From NCBI GenBank assembly GCA_036262515.1, contig DATAIT010000116.1, positions 1 through 52,367 of the forward strand: 52,367 nt of DNA. The letters are read 5' to 3'. The position numbers were made by a program, and so were the translations under genes. Shown piece by piece: positions 7,375 through 48,151 of this stretch (position 1 is the first letter of the stretch; the number at the start of each line of letters is the position of its first letter). The notes under the pieces are model-generated. The model was not told where the DNA came from and made no database searches. It worked only from the letters and a program-made list of their open reading frames with translations. Origin of the DNA: Acidimicrobiales bacterium (GTDB taxonomy: Bacteria; Actinomycetota; Acidimicrobiia; Acidimicrobiales; GCA-2861595).

Positions 7375-8232
7375 ATGGCCGCCGTCGACGCGCTGATCGA
7401 CCTGCTCGACCTCGAGGCCATCGAGGTGAACGTCTTCCGCGGGCGCAGCCCCGACGATCGGCGCCAGCGGGTGTTCGGCGGCCAGGTGGCGGGCCAGGCG
7501 TTGGTGGCGGCCGGGCGGACGGTGACCGAGGAGCGGGCCGTCCACTCCCTGCACGCGTACTTCCTGCGCCCGGGTGATCCGTCGGTACCGATCCTTTACG
7601 AGGTCGACCGCATCCGGGACGGCCGCTCGTTCACGACCCGCCGGGTCGTGGCCATCCAGCACGGGCAGGCCATCTTCAACCTGGCCGCGTCGTTCCACCT
7701 CGCCGAGGACGGCTTCGACCACCAGCTCCCGATGCCCGCGGCGCCGCCTCCGGACGCCCTTCCCACCTTCGCCGAGCGGATGGCGCCGTACCGGGACCAG
7801 CTGGGGGAGTGGTACACCCGCCCCCGTCCCATCGACATCCGCCATGTGGGCGAGCCGCCGCACGTCACCGGCGGCAGCGACCGGCGACCGCCGTGCCAGC
7901 AGGTCTGGTTCCGCGCCGACGGGCCGCTTCCGCACGACGCCCTGCTCCACGCGTGCGTCGTCACCTACGCGTCCGACATGACGCTGCTGGACTCCATCCT
8001 GCTGGCCCACGGAACGAGCTGGCTGGACCCCGACCTCATGGGTGCCAGCCTCGATCACGCCATGTGGTTCCACCGGCCCTTCCGGGCCGACGACTGGTTG
8101 CTCTACGACCAGGAGAGCCCCTCGGCCCACGGGTCGAGGGGTCTCGGTCAGGGGCGCATCTACCGCGGCGACGGAGCCCACGTCGTCTCGGTGGTGCAGG
8201 AGGGTCTGTTCCGCCTCCGAAGGCCCACGTGA
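7375..8232 (+). CDS. tesB: Acyl-CoA thioesterase II
   Basis: This 285-residue protein has a double-hotdog fold of the TesB family, which hydrolyses acyl-CoA to free fatty acid and CoA. Typical segments are FRGRSPDDRRQRVFGGQVAG at the N-terminus, HSLHAYFLRPGDP, GRSFTTRRVVAIQ, and in the second hotdog SLDHAMWFHRPF with the catalytic Asp, the Ser/Thr position in ESPSA, and the catalytic Gln in VVQEGLFR. ATG 7375 gives the standard start (AAVDALIDLLDLEAIEVN); an earlier in-frame ATG at 7357 is less likely. It appears to be a single-gene unit after the hairpin at 7279-7310. Confidence 0.93.
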   Translation: MAAVDALIDLLDLEAIEVNVFRGRSPDDRRQRVFGGQVAGQALVAAGRTVTEERAVHSLHAYFLRPGDPSVPILYEVDRIRDGRSFTTRRVVAIQHGQAIFNLAASFHLAEDGFDHQLPMPAAPPPDALPTFAERMAPYRDQLGEWYTRPRPIDIRHVGEPPHVTGGSDRRPPCQQVWFRADGPLPHDALLHACVVTYASDMTLLDSILLAHGTSWLDPDLMGASLDHAMWFHRPFRADDWLLYDQESPSAHGSRGLGQGRIYRGDGAHVVSVVQEGLFRLRRPT

Positions 8233-8256
8233 CCCAACCGGTGGCGCGGCGCTCCG

Positions 8257-8262
8257 TAGCAT
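8257..8262 (+). promoter_or_regulatory. TAGCAT -10 hexamer, leaderless-type start
   Basis: TAGCAT is followed after eight bases by ATG 8271 of the lipoprotein transglycosylase gene. No ribosome site is visible, so transcription probably starts at or next to the start codon. Confidence 0.55.
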
Positions 8263-8270
8263 GCCCGACC

Positions 8271-9206
8271 ATGGGACGACGCCTGGCCGTGGCCCTAGTG
8301 GCACTCGCCGTCCTGGGCGCGTGTTCCGGCGACGAAAAGCCCATGGTGGCCTCCGGTGACACCTCCACGACCTCCACGACCGTCGCATCCGAAGCCCCGA
8401 CGACCACCGCCGTGGCGGCCCCGTCGACCTCGGGAACTGCTTCTGCGACCACGCGCCCGGCCACCACGCTGCCCGGCGGCGGCGCCGCCCTCGCCGCCGG
8501 CGACCCGGCGTCGGTGGCCGTCGCCCTTGCCGCCAGCGAGGCGGCGATCCGCGACCCCGGCACGCCGATGGCAGACCTCGAGCGCCACGGCCGGGCGCAG
8601 CAGGTCGCCTACCGCCAGCTGGCGGCCCATCCGGAGTGGCTCGACCAGGTGCTCGACGGGGTGCCGCAGTCGTTGCACGCGACCGTGCGGGCCAACGTGG
8701 CCGCCGGCACCGAGCTGCGGGCCCTCACCAAGCCCCAGCCGGCGCTGCCGCCGTGGCGCATCGTGGCTCCTGCGCCGGCCGACGAACTGCTCGGCTACTA
8801 CAAGTCGGCGGCGGACGCCCTCGGCGTGCCCTGGAACTACCTGGCCGCCATCCACCTGGTCGAGACCCGCATGGGCCGGATCCGGGGCACGTCGACGTCG
8901 GGCGCCCAGGGGCCGATGCAGTTCCTTCCCGCCACGTGGGCCCAGTACGGCGAAGGCGGGGACATCAACTCCAACCGCGACTCGATCCTCGCCGCCGCCC
9001 GGTACCTGGCGAGGAACGGCGCCCCGGCCGACCTGCCGCATGCCCTGTATGCGTACAACCACAGCCAGCACTACGTGAACGCCGTCACCGCCTACGCCGA
9101 GCAGATGGGCACAGCCGAGCGGGCGTATTACGGCTACTACCAGTGGCAGGTGTACTACCGCATGGCCGACGGCGATCACCTGCTCCCCGTCGGTTACGGC
9201 TCCTGA
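8271..9206 (+). CDS. Lipoprotein lytic transglycosylase (SLT fold)
   Basis: This is a 311-residue cell-wall enzyme. A signal peptide ends in the lipobox VLGAC with Cys18, so the protein should be lipid-anchored outside the membrane. A Thr/Ser-rich linker (about 25-75) follows. The C-terminal half is an SLT-type lysozyme-like domain with the catalytic Glu in HLVETRMG, then SGAQGPMQFLPATW, INSNRDSILAAARYL and ALYAYNHSQHYVNAV. Such domains cleave the peptidoglycan glycan strand to 1,6-anhydro products. ATG 8271 is fixed by the signal peptide and the -10 hexamer upstream. The gene is convergent with the pstS gene on the other side of a strong hairpin. Confidence 0.9.
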   Translation: MGRRLAVALVALAVLGACSGDEKPMVASGDTSTTSTTVASEAPTTTAVAAPSTSGTASATTRPATTLPGGGAALAAGDPASVAVALAASEAAIRDPGTPMADLERHGRAQQVAYRQLAAHPEWLDQVLDGVPQSLHATVRANVAAGTELRALTKPQPALPPWRIVAPAPADELLGYYKSAADALGVPWNYLAAIHLVETRMGRIRGTSTSGAQGPMQFLPATWAQYGEGGDINSNRDSILAAARYLARNGAPADLPHALYAYNHSQHYVNAVTAYAEQMGTAERAYYGYYQWQVYYRMADGDHLLPVGYGS

Positions 9207-37910: not shown

Positions 37911-38654
37911 TCAGGGCCAGAGCCGCAGGGCGATCTCGGACCACAGGTCGCGAAACGCCCGGGCCGGGGCCGACGACGGCGCGAAGGCAGCCACCGGGGC
38001 CCGCTCGACGCCCATGCGCTCCACCGCGCTGGCGTTCGGCACGACCGACTTCAGGAAGGCGGGCCAGGCGGCGGCGAGGGCGGAGAGCTGCTCACGATGC
38101 AGCTTCTTCCGGCGGTCGACCATGGTGAAGTGGGGGAGCAGGACCGGTGCGCCGGACAGACCTTCCAAGAAGGCAGCCAGCTGGCTCAGCGTGCGGGCGG
38201 AGAGCGTGGTGGGGATCACGGGGACGAGCAGCGCGGCCGTGGCGCCGAACACGCTCTCGCTGGCCAGGGAGATTCCCGGAGGGCAGTCGAGGAAGGCGAC
38301 GTCGTAGCTCTCGTCGAGCGGCGCCAGCAGGGCGGCGAGCCGCTCGGTCGGTCTCTTGGTGGCGTCGAGGTGAAGGTCGAGGTGACGCAGGGAGAAGTCG
38401 GCCGGCACTATATGGAGGCCCGGGAGGTCGGTGGCCCGCACGTGGGCGGCGAGCTCGCCGCGGGCCCCGACCAGCCGGCTCGTCCCGCCCTTGACCTTGG
38501 GCTTGATCCGGAAGAAGTAGCTGGCCGCTCCCTGCGGGTCGAGGTCCCAGAGCAGGACGCGGGCGCCGGCACGCGACGCCTCGTTGGCCAGGTTCACCGC
38601 CGAGGTGGTCTTCCCGACCCCGCCCTTGATGCTGTACGTGGCGAGGACCCTCAT
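37911..38654 (-). CDS. Orphan ParA-like ATPase next to a CHAD protein
   Basis: This 247-residue ParA/MinD-type ATPase has the deviant Walker A in YSIKGGVGKTTSAVNLA, the switch region LLWDLDPQGAASYFF and the Walker B region YDVAFLDCPPGISLASESV. ParA proteins form nucleoid-bound gradients that segregate plasmids, chromosomes, carboxysomes or chemoreceptors. No ParB gene or parS-like cluster is near. It starts 19 bp after the CHAD gene on the same strand, so both are likely one operon. Since CHAD proteins bind polyphosphate granules, the ATPase may position them (inference). A start at ATG 38654 is required by the Walker A near the N-terminus. Confidence 0.9.
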   Translation of the reverse strand: MRVLATYSIKGGVGKTTSAVNLANEASRAGARVLLWDLDPQGAASYFFRIKPKVKGGTSRLVGARGELAAHVRATDLPGLHIVPADFSLRHLDLHLDATKRPTERLAALLAPLDESYDVAFLDCPPGISLASESVFGATAALLVPVIPTTLSARTLSQLAAFLEGLSGAPVLLPHFTMVDRRKKLHREQLSALAAAWPAFLKSVVPNASAVERMGVERAPVAAFAPSSAPARAFRDLWSEIALRLWP

Positions 38655-38673
38655 GACGACCCCGTCTCTGTCG

Positions 38674-40209
38674 TCATCCGCCCCCCGTCGATCGCAGGAG
38701 GGCAGCGAGCGTCTCCGCCGTGCGCTTCGTGTCGTAGGCGGCGAAGCGCTGGGCGAACTCGTCCCGGGCCGCTCGCCGCCGTCCCTCGAGGCTCTCCGTG
38801 AGCCGCCCCACGGCCACGAGCGTGTCGGGCCCGCAGGATTGCAGGCTCCGGGACATCTCTCGTAGCTGGGTGACGTGCACCTCGGCGTCCTGGTGCTCGC
38901 CGAGGTTGTCCTGGAGAGCCTTCAAGCGCTGGACGAACGCCTTTCGGGCCGGTGGGGCGTACAGGCCGCCGAGGCACTCGAGGAGGTACCGAAGCTTCTT
39001 TGCGTCCTTTCGCAGCTCGTGAAGCTCCTCGGCGGGCGTGCCCGCATCGATGCCTCGTCCGCGGTCGAGCACCTGGGCCTGGGCCCGCTGGATCCGGGCG
39101 CCGGCCACCTTGGCGATGTCGCGGCACGCGTCCTTGGCGCTGCGGTCCACCGCCGGTCGGTCGACCCAGCGGTGCCACCCGGTCAGCAGCTGGCGGTACC
39201 GCGACGACTGCAGCACCTTGGCCAGGGTGGCGTGGGCGGCGGCGCGGCGGGACACGATGTCGTCGAGAACCGGGCCGAGGGCGGCTGCGTCGGCGCCCAG
39301 CGGCGCCACGTAGTCGGCCCACTCGATGACGTAGACGTCGAGGTCACGAGCCGGCCCGGTGGCCTGTCCCAGCCAGCCGAACCCCTCGCGGAACCGCCTG
39401 CGCACCTCGGGCGGCAGCACCCCCCTGGCCTCCGAGAGGACCGAGCGGGTGCGGCGCACGGCCACCCGCAGGTCGTGCAGGAACTCGGGGTCGATGTGGT
39501 CGATCGTGCCGGGCCGGTTGGCGTCGATGGCGGCAGCCAGGTTGGACAGCACCTTGCGGAACGCGTCGAGCGCGGGCTCCCCCGGGTCGAGCGGGACGGT
39601 GGGCGATCCCCGGAACCCGGCAACATCGACGACGAGCGCGCCGGCGACCGCATCGAGCAGGCCGCCGGCGGTCCTTCGCAGCCCCATGGACGACAGGAGC
39701 CGATCCGCTGATTCCGCGTCCTTGGCATAGCCGGCCAGCGGTTCCACGGTGGCCACCCACGCGAATGGCGGAGACGCGAAGCTCTCGACCGTCAGCCGCT
39801 CGGCCACCGAGATGCCGGCGCGGACCTTGCCCGCCGGGTCGCGGCGTACGGCCGTGCGCATCCGGGCCGTCACGGTGAGGACGGGCAGCAGCGCCCGGAC
39901 GTCGAGGACTGCCGCCAGGCGCCGGCGCAGAGGGCCGGCGGGGACGTCGGCTGCAAGGCGCGGTCGCTCGGCCACGGCGACGCGCGCCTCGGTCGGCCCT
40001 CCGCCCCGCAGCACCAGCTCCTGGCCGGCGGACCGGTGCAACTCGAGGCGCAGGCCGGCTGCATGCAGCCGCCCGTCGAACGTGTCGAGCATCGTGCGGG
40101 CCACGGTCGACGAGGACCCGACCGAGAAGCCGGCGGCGACAAGCGCGTCGACGACGGCTGCGGCTCCCAGGTCGGTCGAGGTGAATGACGTGGCGTCCAT
40201 AGCGCGCAT
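38674..40209 (-). CDS. CHAD-domain protein with CYTH-like N-terminus
   Basis: The C-terminal half of this 511-residue protein (about 215-505) is a CHAD domain: helical with conserved His and basic residues, as in FLHDLRVAVRRTRSVLSEA, QATGPARDLDVYVIEW, ELHELRKDAKKLRYLLECLG and LQDNLGEHQDAEVHV. CHAD domains bind polyphosphate and locate to polyphosphate granules. The N-terminal half (about 5-200) resembles a CYTH barrel (MLDTFDGRLHAAGLRLELHR) but lacks the EIERKF metal/phosphate motif, so it is probably not catalytic. The first codon can be ATG 40209 or ATG 40200. It is divergent from a genuine CYTH gene and co-directional with the ParA-like gene. Confidence 0.9.
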   Translation of the reverse strand: MRAMDATSFTSTDLGAAAVVDALVAAGFSVGSSSTVARTMLDTFDGRLHAAGLRLELHRSAGQELVLRGGGPTEARVAVAERPRLAADVPAGPLRRRLAAVLDVRALLPVLTVTARMRTAVRRDPAGKVRAGISVAERLTVESFASPPFAWVATVEPLAGYAKDAESADRLLSSMGLRRTAGGLLDAVAGALVVDVAGFRGSPTVPLDPGEPALDAFRKVLSNLAAAIDANRPGTIDHIDPEFLHDLRVAVRRTRSVLSEARGVLPPEVRRRFREGFGWLGQATGPARDLDVYVIEWADYVAPLGADAAALGPVLDDIVSRRAAAHATLAKVLQSSRYRQLLTGWHRWVDRPAVDRSAKDACRDIAKVAGARIQRAQAQVLDRGRGIDAGTPAEELHELRKDAKKLRYLLECLGGLYAPPARKAFVQRLKALQDNLGEHQDAEVHVTQLREMSRSLQSCGPDTLVAVGRLTESLEGRRRAARDEFAQRFAAYDTKRTAETLAALLRSTGGG

Positions 40210-40248: not shown

Positions 40249-40713
40249 GTGGCGAACGAGATCGAGCGGAAGTTCGTTGTGGCCGAGCTCCCCGGGGAAG
40301 CTGTGCTGGGACCGGGGAGCAGGTTGCGGCAAGGGTATCTCGCAGAGGACGGGGGCGTGCAGGTGCGCGTGCGCATCACCGAGCACTCCGCCGTCCTGAC
40401 CGTGAAGGCCGGAGGGGGGCTCGTCCGAACCGAGGTCGAGGCGACGATCGCGCTCGACCAGGCGGACGCATTGTGGCCCCATACCGAGGGGCGTCGCGTG
40501 GAGAAGGTACGCCACCGGGTGGCGGTCGGGCATCTGACCGCGGACGTGGACGTGTACGAAGGGCCACTGGCCGGTCTGTGCACGGCCGAGGTCGAGTTCG
40601 CGTCGCCCGACGAGGCCGCCGCCTTCGAGCCGCCCCGGTGGTTCGGTCGCGACGTCACGGAGGAGCCGGGCTGGGACAACGCCTCCCTCGCCCGTCACGG
40701 GAGGCCGGAGTGA
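40249..40713 (+). CDS. CYTH-domain phosphatase/triphosphate-tunnel protein
   Basis: This 154-residue CYTH protein starts with the diagnostic NEIERKFVVAELP and continues with the alternating basic/acidic strands RLRQGYLAEDGGVQVRVRIT, AVLTVKAGG, TEVEATIA, EKVRHRVAVG and AEVEFASPDEAAAF. Triphosphate-tunnel enzymes hydrolyse inorganic triphosphate or other triphosphates, and some bind polyphosphate. GTG 40249 gives the conserved start; an in-frame codon at 40213 adds a basic leader and is less likely. Its placement, divergent from the CHAD gene, supports a link to polyphosphate metabolism. Confidence 0.9.
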   Translation: MANEIERKFVVAELPGEAVLGPGSRLRQGYLAEDGGVQVRVRITEHSAVLTVKAGGGLVRTEVEATIALDQADALWPHTEGRRVEKVRHRVAVGHLTADVDVYEGPLAGLCTAEVEFASPDEAAAFEPPRWFGRDVTEEPGWDNASLARHGRPE

Positions 40714-40839: not shown

Positions 40840-42222
40840 GTGTTGTCGCCATCGGTCCACGACCCTGTGACCGGACCCGGCTCGCTGACCAAGACCGTCG
40901 TCCTCGACACGTCGGTGCTCGTCGCCGAGCCCGGGGCTCTGCACGAGTTCGAGGGCTGCGCGCTGAAGGTTCCCCTCACCGTCATCGAGGAGCTCGACAG
41001 CCTCAAGACGCGCGCCGACGGTGTTGGGCGCACGGCTCGGGATGCGTTGCGCCGCATCGAGGCCCTACGGGTCGAGGCCGGCGGCTCCCTCGTCGAGCCG
41101 GTGGCGCTGCCGCACGGCGGCACGCTGGCGATCGTCCTGAACGGGGTCAACGCCACCGTGCTCGGCGAGCACTACCTCGACGTCGCCGTTCCCGACAACC
41201 GGATCATCGGCGCCGCCCTGGCGCTGCGCGCCGACGGTCACGAGGTCGAGGTGGTGTCGAACGACGCCGCCCTGCGCATCAAGGCCGCCCACCTCGGCCT
41301 GGCCGCCAAGGAGTACGTGCCACTGCCGGCCTACGGGCGCGGCCAGGACTCACCGGGCTGGCGCACCATCAGCGATCTCGAGGGCGCGCTCGTCGACCGC
41401 CTGTTCAGCGCGCGCAGCGTGCCGGTGACCGAGGTGCCGGGCGGCGGGGCCGTTCCCGAGAACGAGTTCGCCGTGCTGCGGGCTGGCCAGCAGTCGGCCC
41501 TCGCTCGCCGCAAGGGAGATCTTCTCTGCCTGCTCCGCCAGGGCCACGAGGCGTTCGACCTCAAACCGCGCAACATCGAGCAGAGGCTGGCCCTCGACCT
41601 GCTGCTCGACCCCGAGGTCTGCGTCGTCGCCCTGGACGGTCCCGCCGGCACGGGGAAGACACTGCTGGCGATCGCCGCCGGTCTCGAGCAGGTGTGGAAC
41701 CACCCTGCCACCCGCCGGTACGAGCGCATGGCGATCTTCCGTCCTGTCGTCGCCGTCGGCCGCCAGGACCTCGGGTACCTGCCCGGCACGCTCGACGAGA
41801 AGCTCGATCCGTGGATGGGCGCCATACATGACGCGGTCGTGGCCATGAGCGACGGCCGGCGAAAGAGCACGGCCGACGAGACCCTCGCCCAGGTCACGGC
41901 GGAGGGGCGGCTCACCATGGAGTCGGTCACGTACCTGCGCGGGCGCTCGCTCCACGGCACCTGGGTGCTGCTCGACGAGGCCCAGAACCTCGAGCCCAGC
42001 CTGGCCAAGACCGTGCTCACGCGGGCGGCGGAAGGCACCAAGGTGGTGTTCACCGGCGACACCAGCCAGATCGACGCCCCGTTCCTGTCCGCCGACAACA
42101 ACGCCATGGCCGTCCTCACCGCCGCCCTGGGCGCCGGCCGCGGCGGTGGGCTGTTCGGCCACATCCGCCTCACCCAGGGCGAGCGCAGTCCGCTGGCGAC
42201 GATGGCGGCTGAGCTGCTGTGA
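40840..42222 (+). CDS. phoH2: PhoH2: PIN-domain RNase fused to PhoH ATPase
   Basis: This 460-residue protein has an N-terminal PIN domain (about 18-150), with acidic residues in VVLDTSVLV, IEELDSL, DNRIIGAAL and VVSNDAALR, and a C-terminal PhoH ATPase (about 240-455). The ATPase carries Walker A LDGPAGTGKTLLA, RPVVAVGRQDLGYLPGTLDE and Walker B TWVLLDEAQNLEPS. Family members act as sequence-specific RNA-unwinding ribonucleases. GTG 40840 is preceded by AGGAG. In mycobacteria phoH2 is preceded by a small antitoxin gene; here only a 33-codon frame at 40769-40870 occupies that place. It is convergent with the Nudix gene. Confidence 0.93.
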   Translation: MLSPSVHDPVTGPGSLTKTVVLDTSVLVAEPGALHEFEGCALKVPLTVIEELDSLKTRADGVGRTARDALRRIEALRVEAGGSLVEPVALPHGGTLAIVLNGVNATVLGEHYLDVAVPDNRIIGAALALRADGHEVEVVSNDAALRIKAAHLGLAAKEYVPLPAYGRGQDSPGWRTISDLEGALVDRLFSARSVPVTEVPGGGAVPENEFAVLRAGQQSALARRKGDLLCLLRQGHEAFDLKPRNIEQRLALDLLLDPEVCVVALDGPAGTGKTLLAIAAGLEQVWNHPATRRYERMAIFRPVVAVGRQDLGYLPGTLDEKLDPWMGAIHDAVVAMSDGRRKSTADETLAQVTAEGRLTMESVTYLRGRSLHGTWVLLDEAQNLEPSLAKTVLTRAAEGTKVVFTGDTSQIDAPFLSADNNAMAVLTAALGAGRGGGLFGHIRLTQGERSPLATMAAELL

Positions 42223-42226
42223 ACGA

Positions 42227-42658
42227 TCAGGCCGGCGGCCGGTCCACCAGCGCCTGCACGATCGATCGGTCCCGGCCGTAGGAGAGCAGCTCCATGGCGT
42301 CGTCCAGGGCGAGCCATCGCACCTCGTCGACCTCGGAGTTGGGCTCGAACGCCCCGCTCTCCGGGACCATGGCCCAGTAGCGCGCCACCTTCGGCCGGTC
42401 GAACCGGTCCCGATAGGCGACATCACCGAGGTGCTCGCCGAGCGCGCACCGCAGCCCGGTCTCCTCCTCCACCTCACGAAGGGCGCAGTCCTCGTCCGTC
42501 TCGCCGGGCTCCGCCTTTCCCTTCGGCAGGCTCCAGTCGTCGTACTTCGGCCGGTGGACGAGCAGGATCTCCGTGGCGCGGCCGGCGCCGTCTCCCCGGC
42601 GCCGCCACACCACGCCGCCGGCGGCGCGGACCGGGCCAGGGGGGGTGGACGGGGTCAC
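42227..42658 (-). CDS. Nudix hydrolase, MutT1-type N-terminal half
   Basis: This 143-residue protein has an intact Nudix box: GKAEPGETDEDCALREVEEE followed by TGL. The preceding strand VRAAGGVVWRRRGDG and WSLPKGK match MutT/diadenosine-polyphosphate hydrolases. It starts at GTG 42658, overlapping the histidine phosphatase gene by 4 bp. In mycobacterial MutT1 the Nudix domain and a histidine-phosphatase domain form one protein beside ppk; here they are two coupled genes in the opposite order. Likely substrates are oxidised nucleotides or diadenosine polyphosphates. Confidence 0.92.
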   Translation of the reverse strand: MTPSTPPGPVRAAGGVVWRRRGDGAGRATEILLVHRPKYDDWSLPKGKAEPGETDEDCALREVEEETGLRCALGEHLGDVAYRDRFDRPKVARYWAMVPESGAFEPNSEVDEVRWLALDDAMELLSYGRDRSIVQALVDRPPA

Positions 42659-43128
42659 GCCGCCGGCGGTGTGTAGCAGCCCGTCGTGCGTCCGTCACGG
42701 TCTCGCCGCAGCGCCCACACCGACCCCTTCTGGCAGCGCCCGCCGTCGCCGAGATCCGCTCCCTCACGGGCGAGCACGTCGAGGCACTCGGGGATGACGT
42801 CACCGTGCGAGCACAGCACCACCGCCTGTCCGCCGCCAGGGGCGGTGAGCATGGACCGGATGAGGGCCAGGGCGCGTGGCCCTTCGCCTTCGAACAGGTC
42901 GTTCTCGTTCACCACGTCGAGCCCTCGTGCGACGGCCAGCGGCTCGACGGTGGCGACGCAGCGCACCGTCGGGCTGGCCAGGACCCGCACCACGTCGAAG
43001 GTCTTCAGCTCCCCGACGAGAGCGGCCGCCTGCCGCCCTCCGCGCTCATTGAGTGGCCGGAGGGCGTCGTCCTCCGTCCAGGAGCGCCGGGAGACGGCGA
43101 CGGCGTGCCGGACGAGGAGCACCACCAT
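42655..43128 (-). CDS. SixA-like histidine phosphatase
   Basis: This 157-residue protein of the phosphoglycerate-mutase/SixA superfamily has the RH motif in VVLLVRHAVAVSRRSW, the second basic site in VRVLASPTVRCVATVEPLA and the catalytic His in VVLCSHGDVIPECLDV. It resembles the C-terminal domain of mycobacterial MutT1. GTGA overlap couples it to the Nudix gene. It lies 54 bp behind ppk on the same strand, so ppk, this gene and the Nudix gene probably form an operon under the PHO-box promoter at 45.4 kb. Confidence 0.88.
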   Translation of the reverse strand: MVVLLVRHAVAVSRRSWTEDDALRPLNERGGRQAAALVGELKTFDVVRVLASPTVRCVATVEPLAVARGLDVVNENDLFEGEGPRALALIRSMLTAPGGGQAVVLCSHGDVIPECLDVLAREGADLGDGGRCQKGSVWALRRDRDGRTTGCYTPPAA

Positions 43129-43182: not shown

Positions 43183-45318
43183 TCAGGGGAGCTCCGACAC
43201 GAGCGACTGGGCGTCCTTCCGCTGGCGCTCGAGGGCGAGCTCCTGGAGCCGGGAATGGGAGGCCACGCCTTCGACCGTCGGCACCTTCGACCACCGACCG
43301 TCCCCGTCGAGCTGCCAGGCAAGCGTGTCGTCGGCCAGCTCGACGTCGAGGATCTCCTGCAGCCGGACCTGGAGCGCAGGCTGCTCGACGGGCACGACCA
43401 CCTCGATTCGCTTGTCGAGGTTGCGCTGCATCATGTCGGCGGAGCCGATGAGGTAGCGGACGCCGCCCTGCTCTGGTTCGCCGAAGGCGAAGATCCGCGA
43501 GTGCTCGAGGTAGCGCCCGACGACGGATCGGACCCGGATGTTGTCCGACAAGCCGGGAACTCCGGGGCGCAGGGAACACATGCTCCGCACGATCAGGTCG
43601 ATGGACGTTCCTGCGATCGACGCGCTGTACAGCGCATCGATCACGGCCTTGTCGACCAGGCTGTTCATCTTCATGACGATCCGACCGGGCCGCTCGCCGG
43701 CGGCCTCGCCGTCGATGAGCTCCACGATGCGGGCCCGCAGCTGGGTGGGGGCGAGCAGAAGCTTCCGGTACTGATGCTGGCGGCTGTACCCCGTGAGGAA
43801 GTTGAACAGCTCGGTGAGATCCGCACCCAGGTCCGGGTTGGCCGAGAGGAGACCGACGTCCTCGTACATACGCGCCGTCTTGGGGTTGTAGTTGCCGGTG
43901 CCCACGTGGCAGTAGCGCCGGATGCCGTCGTCCTCCTGGCGCACGACGAGGGCGGTCTTGCTGTGGGTCTTGAAGCCGACGAGGCCGTACACGACGTGCA
44001 CGCCCGCCTCTTCCAGGGCGCGGGCCCACGCGATGTTTGCCTGCTCGTCGAAGCGCGCCTTGAGCTCCACGAGGGCGGAAACCTGCTTCCCCCGTTCCGC
44101 CGCCCGGATCAGTGCCTTCACGATGGGACTGTCACCGGAGGTCCGGTAGAGCGTCTGCTTGATCGCAAGCACCTTGGGGTCGCGCGCCGCTTGCCGGACG
44201 AAGGCCTCGACCGTGGTGCGGAAGGAGTCGTACGGGTGGTGGACGAGGATGTCGCGCTCGCGCAGCGCGGCGAACACGTCGACGTGCTCGTCGGCGTCGA
44301 CCAGGAGCCCCGACGGCGTGACGGGCTGCCACGGCTCGTCCTTCAGATCGGGCCGGGCCAGATCGTGCAGCGCCCACAGCGCGGACAAGCCGAGCGGTCC
44401 GTCGAGCACGTAGACGTCGCCGGGCTCCACCTCCAGCTCCCGCTCGAGGAGGTCCCGGGCCTCGTCGCTCATGCTGGTGTCGATCTCGAGGCGGACGGCC
44501 TGCCCGAAGCGGCGCTGGCGCAGCTCCATCTCCACCGCGGCCAGCAGGTCGTCCGCCTCTTCGGAGTCCTCCTGGATCGTGAGGTCCGTGTTCCGCGTGA
44601 CTCGGAACGGATAGTGGCACTCGATCTCCATGCCGGCGAACAGGCGGTCGAGGTGGGCGGCGATCACCTGCTCGAGCGGCACGAAGTTCGCACCGTCCGG
44701 CAGGCCGACGAATCGGGGCAGAAGCGGAGGCACCTTCACGCGGGCGAAGCGACGCTCCGACGTGACAGGGTCGCGCGCGATCACGGCCAGGTTGAGAGAC
44801 AGGTTGGAGATGTAGGGGAACGGGTGTCCCGGGTCGACGGCCAGCGGCGTGAGCACCGGGAAGACGTCGTCGAACACGGCTTGCATGTGCTTCTGGTCGC
44901 CGTGGTCGAGCGAGTCCCAGTCCCGGATGCGGATGCCTGCTTCGGCCAGGGCGGGGACGACGCTGTCGAGAAAGACGCGGGACTGCCGCGTGGCCAGCAC
45001 CCCGAGGCGCTCGCGAATGGCGGCGAGGGTCTCCGCCGGGGTCGAACCGTCCGTGCCGGGCGTTCCGACTCCTGCCGCCACCTGGTCCTTGAGCCCAGCC
45101 ACCCGGACCTGGAAGAACTCGTCGATGTTGCTCGAGAAGATCGCGAGGAACTTGGCCCGCTCGAGGAGCGGGAGGCCCGTGTCCTCGGCGAGCGACAGCA
45201 CCCGCTCCTGGAAGTCGAGCAGGGACAGCTCCCGGTTGAGGTACGGGGGTTCGTTCCCGGTCTCCGGCGGCTGGACCGGTGCCGGCGTCTCTATGAGCTC
45301 GTCGAGCTGCCTGGCCAT
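43183..45318 (-). CDS. ppk: Polyphosphate kinase 1
   Basis: This 711-residue enzyme makes polyphosphate from the ATP gamma-phosphate at the membrane or in granules. The N domain has LNRELSLLDFQERVL and FLAIFSSNIDEFFQVRVAGL. The head domain has YPFRVTRNTDLTIQEDSEEA. The two PLD-like catalytic domains carry the phosphorylated His452 in GFKTHSKTALVV, the nearby GTGNYNPKTARMYEDVGLL, and the second His region FGEPEQGGVRYLIGSADMMQ. ATG 45318 is preferred over GTG 45327 because TAGCGT lies seven bases upstream of the ATG, which implies a leaderless start. A four-unit PHO box precedes it. Confidence 0.95.
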   Translation of the reverse strand: MARQLDELIETPAPVQPPETGNEPPYLNRELSLLDFQERVLSLAEDTGLPLLERAKFLAIFSSNIDEFFQVRVAGLKDQVAAGVGTPGTDGSTPAETLAAIRERLGVLATRQSRVFLDSVVPALAEAGIRIRDWDSLDHGDQKHMQAVFDDVFPVLTPLAVDPGHPFPYISNLSLNLAVIARDPVTSERRFARVKVPPLLPRFVGLPDGANFVPLEQVIAAHLDRLFAGMEIECHYPFRVTRNTDLTIQEDSEEADDLLAAVEMELRQRRFGQAVRLEIDTSMSDEARDLLERELEVEPGDVYVLDGPLGLSALWALHDLARPDLKDEPWQPVTPSGLLVDADEHVDVFAALRERDILVHHPYDSFRTTVEAFVRQAARDPKVLAIKQTLYRTSGDSPIVKALIRAAERGKQVSALVELKARFDEQANIAWARALEEAGVHVVYGLVGFKTHSKTALVVRQEDDGIRRYCHVGTGNYNPKTARMYEDVGLLSANPDLGADLTELFNFLTGYSRQHQYRKLLLAPTQLRARIVELIDGEAAGERPGRIVMKMNSLVDKAVIDALYSASIAGTSIDLIVRSMCSLRPGVPGLSDNIRVRSVVGRYLEHSRIFAFGEPEQGGVRYLIGSADMMQRNLDKRIEVVVPVEQPALQVRLQEILDVELADDTLAWQLDGDGRWSKVPTVEGVASHSRLQELALERQRKDAQSLVSELP

Positions 45319-45325
45319 CGACTCC

Positions 45326-45331
45326 ACGCTA
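45326..45331 (-). promoter_or_regulatory. TAGCGT -10 hexamer, leaderless-type start of ppk
   Basis: On the minus strand TAGCGT is followed after seven bases by ATG 45318. It overlaps the alternative GTG 45327, which argues against that codon. Confidence 0.6.
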
Positions 45332-45433: not shown

Positions 45434-48151
45434 TCAGGCCAACAGGCTCGCCGTGGCGCCCTTCCGTGCAAACTCGGCGAGGGCGGCGGGGGCAAGGGGG
45501 CGGGAGTAGTAGTAGCCCTGCCCGAGCTCGCACCCGATCGTCCGGAGGGCGAGCAGCTGGTCGGTCTCCTCGATCCCTTCGGCCACCATCTTGAGGTTCA
45601 GCCCTTCGCCGAGCCGCACGATGCCCGAGGCCAGGCTCCGCTCGGGAGCCTCCTGGGAGAGGCGCTCGACGAACGAACGGTCGATCTTCAAGACGTCGAA
45701 CGGGAAGCGGTGGAGGTAGCTGAGCGACGAGTAGCCGGTGCCGAAGTCGTCGATGGCGAGCCGCACCCCGAGGTCCTTGAGCAGCCGCAGCGTGCTCACC
45801 GTCTCGTCGTTGTGCTCGAGCAGGACGCTCTCGGTCATCTCGAGCACGAGCTGCGACGGCTCCAGCCCCGACAGCTGCAGCGCGACGGCCACGTCGGTGG
45901 CCAGTCCCGGGTGCAGCAGCTGACGACCGGACAGGTTCACCGAGACCGACGGTGAGGCGTCGCCCCACAGATCCGACCACTGCCGGATCTGCGAGCACGC
46001 CTCCTGGAGGACCCAGCGGCCGATGTCGACGATGAGGGCCGACCACTCGGCGAGGGGGATGAACTCGTTCGGCGCCACCCTGCCGCGCGTCGGATGGTCC
46101 CAGCGGGCCAAGGCCTCCACGCCCACCATGCAGCCGGTCTCCAAGTGGACGATGGGCTGGTATTCGAGCGACAGCTCGTTGCGGGCGACGGCGTGGTGCA
46201 GGTCGCTCTCCAGCCCGGTGCGGTCGACTGCGGCCGTGCGCATGGTGCGCTCGAAGCGCTTGTAGCCGCCGAGTCCCTCGGACTTGGCCCGGTACATCGC
46301 CAGGTCGGCGTTGCGCAGGAGGCTGTCGGCCGTCTCCGCCTCGGGATCGGCCACGGCGATACCGATGCTGAAGCTGAGGAACAGGTCACGGCCGTCGATG
46401 ACGATCGGGGCACGCAGCGTCTCGCTCAGGCGCTCGGCCACGACGTTGGCCTCGGCCTCGAACATGACGTCCTCGAGGAGCACGGCGAACTCGTCGCCGC
46501 CGAGGCGGGCCACCGTGTCGCCCGGCCGGACGACCGCGCTCAGGCGCTCACCCACCGCCTTGAGGAGCAGGTCGCCGGACGCATGGCCGAGGCTGTCGTT
46601 GACCCGCTTGAAGCCGTCGAGGTCGCAGAACAGGACCGCCACCGCCCGCCGGCGCAGGTGCCGCTGGGCCAGGGCGTGGCCGATGCGGTCGCGGAAGAGG
46701 CAGGCGTTGGCCAGCCCGGTGAGCGGATCGTGAAAGGCCTGGTGCACCAGCTGGTCCTCGAGCATCTTGCGCTCGCTGATGTCGCGGGTGTTGAGCACGA
46801 CACCGCGCACGCTCGGCTCGGCCAGCAGATTGGTTATCGCCGTCTCCGACCGGCACCAGTGCCCGGCGCGATGAAGGAGGCCGAGCTCCACGAGGGCCGT
46901 TCCACCCGGCGCGCTCTCCGCCTGGCCGACGGCGTTGAGGAAGACGTCGATGTCGTCGACGTGGACCAGGTCGGCGAAGGCGGTGCCGGTGAGGAGGTCC
47001 GGCTCGTAGCCGAAGACGCGCTCCACCGACGCGCTCTGATAGCGGATGGACCCGTCCGGCTCGAGGATCGTCACCACGTCGGAGGAGTTCTGCACGAGCG
47101 AGCGGAACCGTTCCTCGTTCTTGCGCACCTCCTCCGTGCGCACGCGGACCCGCTCCTCCAGCGTTCGGGCCAGGCTGTGGTTCTCGAGGATGGACAGGTA
47201 CTGGCGGGCGACGAGCAGCAGCATGGTGACCACGAGGTCCCATACGACGAAGGCCTCGATGCTGCCGCCGAAGATCTGCAGTGCACCGGCGGCGGTGATG
47301 GCGCCGAGCACGGCGAGGTACGGGGTGGCCGCTGCCGCCCGGCGGGGGATGGCGTCCTCCGAGGAGTGGCCGTGGAAGCGCCGCCGGCTGCTGGATGCCA
47401 CGAAGAGCAGCCCGAAGCCGATGAACCATCCGCTGTCGATGAGGTTGCCCGACTGGTAGAGACCCTTGGTGGTGAGATAGGTGAAGCCGCTGTCGGCGAC
47501 CGCCAGCGACGTCAGGGCGGCGGAGATGACGACGAGGTTGCCCATCGGCGCGCCGTCGGCCCGGCGGCACTGCGAGATGTAGGCCAGCGCCATGGTCACC
47601 ATCACGACGTCGCCCACCGGGTAGGCGAGGCTGATGACGAGCTGCAGGAGGTGCTGGCCGCCGGCGTGGACCAGCGGTCCCAGTACGACTGCCCAGCTCA
47701 CCACCATGAGCGAGCTCGCCGTGACGAGACCGTCGAGGACCATCCGCACCCTGCTGGCCGAGCTGCGGGCGGTGCTCGGCATCGACAGGAGGGCGGCCAC
47801 GGCCAGGGGCACGGCTCCGAGATAGCCGATGTCGGCCAGCGACGGGAACGGGACCGACCGGTTCAGCACCGTCTCGTACAGGGTCCACGTCGCCTGACCC
47901 AGGCCCCACGACGCGCAGGAGGCGGCGAAGAGGAACCACGCCCGCCTGGACCCGTCGCAGCTGCGGCGGCCGGCTGCCGCGCAGGACACGGCGGCCACGC
48001 CGGCTGCGCTGATCAACCCCACGTTGGATACCAGGCGAGCCGCGACCTCCCCCTGATGGAAGGCGAGGAAGAGGCCCCAGGCCGCGGTCACCGCAGCGGC
48101 GACGAAGACCTCGAACCCGAATGGGACGCTCGACCTTCTCCGCGCACGCAC
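45434..48151 (-). CDS. Membrane GGDEF-EAL protein with PAS domain (c-di-GMP turnover)
   Basis: This 905-residue protein has about eight to nine N-terminal transmembrane helices (residues 10-315) and a short coiled coil (SLARTLEERVRVRTEEVRKN). A PAS domain (about 340-460) follows, then a GGDEF domain (about 475-635) with intact ARLGGDEFAVLL and an I-site RPGD five residues before it. The EAL domain (about 650-895) has VEALARWDHP, VNLSGRQLL, LEMTES, DDFGTGYSSL, KIDRSF and VAEGIE. Both catalytic domains look competent, so it may make and degrade c-di-GMP. It starts at GTG 48151, where a FliA-type promoter would begin the transcript, so it may be leaderless. No flagellar gene is in the window. 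Confidence 0.92.
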   Translation of the reverse strand: MRARRRSSVPFGFEVFVAAAVTAAWGLFLAFHQGEVAARLVSNVGLISAAGVAAVSCAAAGRRSCDGSRRAWFLFAASCASWGLGQATWTLYETVLNRSVPFPSLADIGYLGAVPLAVAALLSMPSTARSSASRVRMVLDGLVTASSLMVVSWAVVLGPLVHAGGQHLLQLVISLAYPVGDVVMVTMALAYISQCRRADGAPMGNLVVISAALTSLAVADSGFTYLTTKGLYQSGNLIDSGWFIGFGLLFVASSSRRRFHGHSSEDAIPRRAAAATPYLAVLGAITAAGALQIFGGSIEAFVVWDLVVTMLLLVARQYLSILENHSLARTLEERVRVRTEEVRKNEERFRSLVQNSSDVVTILEPDGSIRYQSASVERVFGYEPDLLTGTAFADLVHVDDIDVFLNAVGQAESAPGGTALVELGLLHRAGHWCRSETAITNLLAEPSVRGVVLNTRDISERKMLEDQLVHQAFHDPLTGLANACLFRDRIGHALAQRHLRRRAVAVLFCDLDGFKRVNDSLGHASGDLLLKAVGERLSAVVRPGDTVARLGGDEFAVLLEDVMFEAEANVVAERLSETLRAPIVIDGRDLFLSFSIGIAVADPEAETADSLLRNADLAMYRAKSEGLGGYKRFERTMRTAAVDRTGLESDLHHAVARNELSLEYQPIVHLETGCMVGVEALARWDHPTRGRVAPNEFIPLAEWSALIVDIGRWVLQEACSQIRQWSDLWGDASPSVSVNLSGRQLLHPGLATDVAVALQLSGLEPSQLVLEMTESVLLEHNDETVSTLRLLKDLGVRLAIDDFGTGYSSLSYLHRFPFDVLKIDRSFVERLSQEAPERSLASGIVRLGEGLNLKMVAEGIEETDQLLALRTIGCELGQGYYYSRPLAPAALAEFARKGATASLLA

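Follow-up and report, generated by a model that had tools for sequence, protein, structure and literature searches.

The locus described here raises the question of why a ParA-type ATPase is encoded directly behind a CHAD protein, amid enzymes of phosphate metabolism. The genes of known ParA/MinD ATPases frequently adjoin those of their cargo (PMC10241942). A 2025 review leaves it open whether cells spend energy on the placement of polyphosphate (polyP) granules, and lists AlgP as the sole positioning factor for these granules (PMC13052382). The window that we analyzed is a stretch of 52,367 nucleotides that makes up contig C116 of a 3.4-Mb draft assembly, which is 97.8% complete. It contains the following features:

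37911..38654, minus strand: ParA/MinD-family ATPase, 247 aa (Pfam, alignments, AlphaFold model, Foldseek, tree)
38655..38673, minus strand: 19-bp gap between the CHAD stop and the ParA start (most relatives have an overlap of 4 bp or 1 bp)
38674..40209, minus strand: CHAD protein, 511 aa (Pfam, AlphaFold model, Foldseek, conserved polyP residues)
40252..40713, plus strand: separate CYTH protein, divergently encoded, with intact E.E.K motif (EIERK; Pfam CYTH 2.7e-07)
40840..42222, plus strand: neighbouring PhoH2 (PIN plus PhoH helicase), kept in a genome of the same family (G001)
42227..42658, minus strand: Nudix hydrolase (domain search)
42655..43128, minus strand: histidine phosphatase, branch 1 (domain search)
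43183..45327, minus strand: polyphosphate kinase PPK1, the polyP-making enzyme (the only PPK1 match in the assembly)

The spacing of 19 bp that the earlier note gave for the ParA and CHAD genes is exact, and the CYTH, PhoH2, Nudix, histidine phosphatase and Ppk1 neighbours that it named are all present. The Nudix and histidine phosphatase genes (42227-43128) share 4 bp, and each matches one half of mycobacterial MutT1 (NF052459); at another locus (L055) a single open frame directly behind the ParA gene (7708-8631) matches both halves. The PPK1 gene of the window is adjoined by that for a 905-aa PAS-GGDEF-EAL protein (45434-48151).

Only one ParB match was found in the assembly (C80:45830-46351), and it lies directly behind another ParA (C80:45007-45747). 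The view that the CHAD-linked ParA is an orphan therefore holds across the whole 3.4 Mb. A ParB encoded elsewhere was considered as an explanation for this ATPase and rejected, because that single ParB is paired with the other ParA. The CHAD-linked ParA shares its ATPase fold and motifs with the ParABS system (Soj/Spo0J), but it differs from that system in falling into a separate clade, in having CHAD as its partner, and in the absence of any cognate ParB, adjacent or free. These observations bear on the idea that polyP is coupled to the chromosome, with CHAD-bound granules serving as ballast or as a signal for segregation or cell-cycle exit while ParA acts on the DNA. PolyP granules do arise in the nucleoid, affect cell-cycle exit in Pseudomonas aeruginosa, and track segregation in Caulobacter (PMC9239181, PMC13052382). 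However, the genome has a separate ParA-ParB pair for its chromosome and the CHAD-linked ParAs are distinct from Soj, and we consider such a coupling very unlikely.

The window ParA matches the Pfam families AAA_31 (6.6e-28) and CbiA (3.3e-15), and its ATPase motifs are intact: a deviant Walker A (KGGVGKT) with the signature Lys10, a Walker A' (DLDPQ) and a Walker B (LDCPP). Residues K10, K15, D39 and D123 are invariant in alignments of 28-29 sequences, and the clade of CHAD-linked ParAs has a family motif, FRxKPxVKGG. When the AlphaFold model (pLDDT 95) was searched with Foldseek, the best folds were those of Soj/ParA, with TM-scores of 0.88-0.92 to Soj and ParA structures, followed by McdA. 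The model gives a confidently predicted final helix (229-245), and the chain stops at residue 247 without a tail, which argues against targeting to the membrane in the manner of MinD. Two conserved sets of basic residues, 49-55 and 181-183, are candidate contacts to DNA (or polyP), and R181/R182/K183 align with the 'M.D.R' segment of Soj.

To define the spread of the pair, we scanned genome contigs with the ParA alignment alone, which yielded 80 loci. A CHAD gene was located directly upstream on the same strand in 57 of these, from nine phyla (Pseudomonadota, Actinomycetota, Acidobacteriota, Gemmatimonadota, Planctomycetota, Chloroflexota, Chlorobiota, Thermodesulfobacteriota and Ca. Dormiibacterota); among the non-adjacent loci at least two (L015, L022) are truncated by a contig end. 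The adjacency is thus conserved well beyond the window. Of the three refuting conditions that the earlier note set, a lack of this conservation and a ParB partner elsewhere were both checked, and both outcomes favour its reading. The ParA gene is linked to that of a candidate cargo or adaptor protein, as are ATPases of the McdA, ParC and FlhG type. In a set of 68 adjacent cases, which includes duplicates of the window and other sources, the order is always CHAD followed by ParA; with start codons as assigned automatically, the genes overlap by 4 bp in 35 cases (ATGA-type) and by 1 bp in 13. The same-family genome G001 retains the pair, and a genome of the same genus (G003) gave no ParA match at E 1e-30. 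Near the pair in G001 there are two PPK1 matches (C85:33468-33980 and 39230-39763).

A quick maximum-likelihood tree places the CHAD-linked ParAs together, apart from Soj, in a single group (92 rows, SH-aLRT 95). This group also takes in members without an adjacent CHAD, such as those of Methylococcales with CHAD elsewhere in the genome, and some members from genomes that have no CHAD. The CHAD tree repeats many groupings of the ParA tree, including one of Paracoccus, Colwellia, Chlorobiaceae and Chloroflexota, although inner branches are often weak. Pairwise distances between ParAs and between CHADs correlate with r = 0.70, whereas permutations reached at most 0.24. The mirrored trees point to a long inheritance of ParA and CHAD as a unit, which was probably also transferred as such between lineages.

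Co-occurrence extends to genomes in which the two genes are apart. Among 274 genomes of Gammaproteobacteria (the class of Methylovulum), ParA is present in 44, with CHAD adjacent in 30, elsewhere in 8 and absent in 6. CHAD thus occurs in 38 of the 44 ParA-positive genomes versus 49 of the 230 ParA-free ones (Fisher p 2e-16, a descriptive value because the sampled genomes are not phylogenetically independent). In Actinomycetota, the window's phylum as judged by its relatives, 11 of 296 genomes have the ParA, with CHAD adjacent in 7, elsewhere in 3 and absent in 1; CHAD itself is found in 123 genomes, 10 of which have a ParA of the CHAD-linked type. In the window's own class (198 genomes) a threshold of E 1e-40 gives 24 ParA loci, of which 10 are adjacent to CHAD, and all seven loci with E below 1e-100 are adjacent. 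The pair is therefore a widespread minority system. Since most genomes with CHAD lack the ParA clade, ParA is dispensable for CHAD function in general, and CHADs mostly function without it. That the two proteins of the pair are functionally linked is nonetheless near certain. The genes could in general be neighbours by chance, or passive members of an operon with no common function, and nothing more specific speaks for this; given the conservation over nine phyla, the fixed order and orientation, the overlapping codons, the similar trees and the co-occurrence, we consider its probability negligible.

The CHAD partner ties the pair to polyP. The window protein contains the domain PF05235 at residues 221-448 (E 1.9e-58), and its AlphaFold model (pLDDT 95.7) has a CYTH/TTM fold (about 1-205) in front of a CHAD domain of the 'long' type (about 213-455), followed by conserved helices at the C-terminus (about 461-506). 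Foldseek retrieved the structures 6qv7, 6qva and 3e0s together with TTM proteins, in agreement with the suggestion that the N-terminal half is CYTH-like. The nearest solved structure (E about 1e-39) is the CHAD protein of Chlorobaculum tepidum, which was crystallised with polyP (PDB 6qva; PMC6537752). Residues H253, R256, R260, R296 and R418/Y419 of the C. tepidum protein, which were mutated in the structural study (PMC6537752), map to H245, R248, R252, R288 and R407/Y408 of the window protein, and their equivalents are invariant in all 54 aligned ParA-linked CHADs. Other CHADs localise to polyP granules, according to work cited in PMC6537752. What we take to be the genome of C. tepidum, since its CHAD is a 100% match to the crystallised chain, has a ParA of the clade 2 bp downstream of the CHAD gene, a neighbour of which a text search of PMC6537752 finds no mention. 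In Chlorobiaceae, CHAD is followed by ParA at 19 of 20 loci, and at the remaining one PPK1 is found there. ParAs without CHAD may also sit beside PPK1, either directly behind it (L125) or convergent with it (Marinobacter, L077), and of the 11 CHAD-less ParA genomes that we checked, 9 contain PPK1. Based on these data, the pair very probably acts on polyP. The CHAD could instead hold some other assembly, such as a soluble enzyme cluster, a metal store or a membrane site: CHAD proteins have also been tied to copper (PMC10892726), and that of C. tepidum also binds heparin (PMC6537752). Against this stand the invariance of the tested polyP-binding residues and the presence of PPK1 within the window, which make a cargo of this kind highly improbable.

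Action on polyP may nevertheless take the form of regulation, in which ParA would switch CHAD, PPK1 or a nearby phosphatase according to ATP status and have no role in placement. An equally doubtful variant has ParA setting the nucleation or size of granules, in the way that FleN, BcsQ and Soj-NrdR act on their partners. All three of these are among the fold matches of the ParA model, which counts against positioning; the neighbouring genes encode enzymes of phosphate metabolism, and the two CHAD-less loci just mentioned place ParA next to PPK1 itself. However, PPK1 was present in only 6 of the ParA loci scanned, and the constant partner is CHAD, a non-enzyme whose CYTH half has lost the catalytic motif. 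We therefore regard regulation as doubtful in either form.

Taken together, the gene and fold comparisons suggest that the pair positions or partitions polyP granules, and we put the probability of this reading at roughly 0.6. We favour it because of the adjacency in 57 of 80 loci, the mirrored trees and the co-occurrence of genes that are not adjacent; because CHAD-less ParAs keep a link to PPK1, the C. tepidum CHAD is linked to a ParA, the fold is that of Soj and McdA, and the sole ParB lies elsewhere; and because ParA/MinD ATPases are often encoded beside their cargo genes (PMC10241942). The absence of ParA from most CHAD genomes, the presence of some group members in genomes without CHAD, and the lack of a basic peptide in CHAD (see below) speak against it. 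Only marginally less probable is the fuller proposal of an ATP-driven system spanning phyla, in which CHAD would be an adaptor like ParB or McdB through a CYTH domain that has lost catalysis and been repurposed.

As a ParA/MinD-type spatial organiser with the polyP granule as cargo, the pair might work as follows. CHAD would coat polyP or tether to it via its basic pore, the residues of which are conserved; for a ParA-linked orthologue, biochemical work has demonstrated the binding. The ATP sandwich dimer of ParA would bind the nucleoid non-specifically. Contact of granule-borne CHAD with ParA would stimulate the ATPase and create a zone depleted of ParA, which would move the granule or hold it at mid-nucleoid, so that granules are split between the daughter cells. 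We infer these steps of contact, nucleoid binding, stimulation and movement. The surfaces of CHAD that are likely to face ParA are its inactive CYTH domain, its C-terminal helices, or both. The E.E.K motif near the start is present in none of the 54 aligned ParA-linked CHADs, as compared to 11 of 13 ParA-free CHADs from the same class, most of which are encoded beside PPK1. The ParA-linked proteins have conserved positions of their own in the CYTH-like half, for example R105, K128, G160 and Y161. Loss of the catalytic motif with retention of the fold would fit a non-enzymatic adaptor role. A basic N-terminal peptide is typical of ParA partners such as ParB, McdB and MinE. No ParA-activating peptide of this type was found in 55 linked CHADs, the first 20 residues of which have a mean net charge of −0.9. 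We also considered a C-terminal tail exclusive to ParA-linked CHADs; the tail is conserved, but a basic tail of a different build occurs in ParA-free CHADs as well, so that the conserved tail is no more than a candidate site of contact. Natural fusions of CHAD and ParA were absent among the loci collected.

Of the known systems, McdA-McdB is similar in that an orphan ParA-type ATPase is encoded with a cargo gene and without ParB. It differs in its cargo, the carboxysome, where here a polyP granule would be moved, and in its adaptor, as McdB is largely disordered whereas the CHAD protein binds polyP and has no conserved basic N-terminal peptide. AlgP, which spaces granules in P. aeruginosa, has the cargo and the nucleoid scaffold in common with the proposed system, but it is an unrelated histone-H1-like tether without an ATPase (PMC9239181). 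A survey of multiple ParA/MinD ATPases (PMC10241942) gave no match for polyphosphate or CHAD, and we found no proposal of a ParA-based positioning system for polyP granules or CHAD in the open-licence literature. The earlier note's statement that no such system has been described thus stands for the function within that literature. For the adjacency it does not, as a folD-ppk-parA-CHAD cluster of Acidithiobacillus had appeared in print in 2019 and again in 2024 (PMC6416229, PMC10892726); the passages concerned give it as context, uninterpreted and with no positioning function put forward. If the positioning reading is correct, polyP granules would be a further cargo of ParA/MinD ATPases and a whole CHAD subfamily would gain a function. 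The pair is a specific and widely conserved candidate for granule placement, present in the very organism whose CHAD was crystallised with polyP.

Several loci show further arrangements. On Paracoccus plasmids the order is CHAD-ParA-CYTH-Nudix, in P. marcusii beside pstB-phoU-phoB. The CHAD-ParA operon on two Paracoccus plasmids opens with a gene for a 62-aa RHH/CopG-like protein with a basic N-terminus (L006 3299-3487, L008 3288-3476), which resembles ParA partners of the ParG type in size and fold class, with a weak Pfam match below the cut-off. In Halomonas (L048, L051, L059) the two genes do not form an operon; ParA converges with the neighbouring gene for a short and divergent CHAD. A SixA-like histidine phosphatase is encoded directly behind ParA at two Nitrosomonas loci and one Chromatiales locus (L067, L083, L071), and in the last of these PPK1 follows. 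Related ParAs outside the CHAD group occur on Sphingomonadaceae plasmids (L007, L011), in Sphingomonas parapaucimobilis beside an aat gene. Finally, the Marinobacter nauticus plasmid pMAQU02 encodes an orphan ParA (L009, 5001-5747) that joins the tree near the clade by a long branch. Its gene is close to that for an acetoacetyl-CoA reductase (phbB) and about 7 kb from a CHAD gene, and it may belong to a related system for granules of PHB or polyP.
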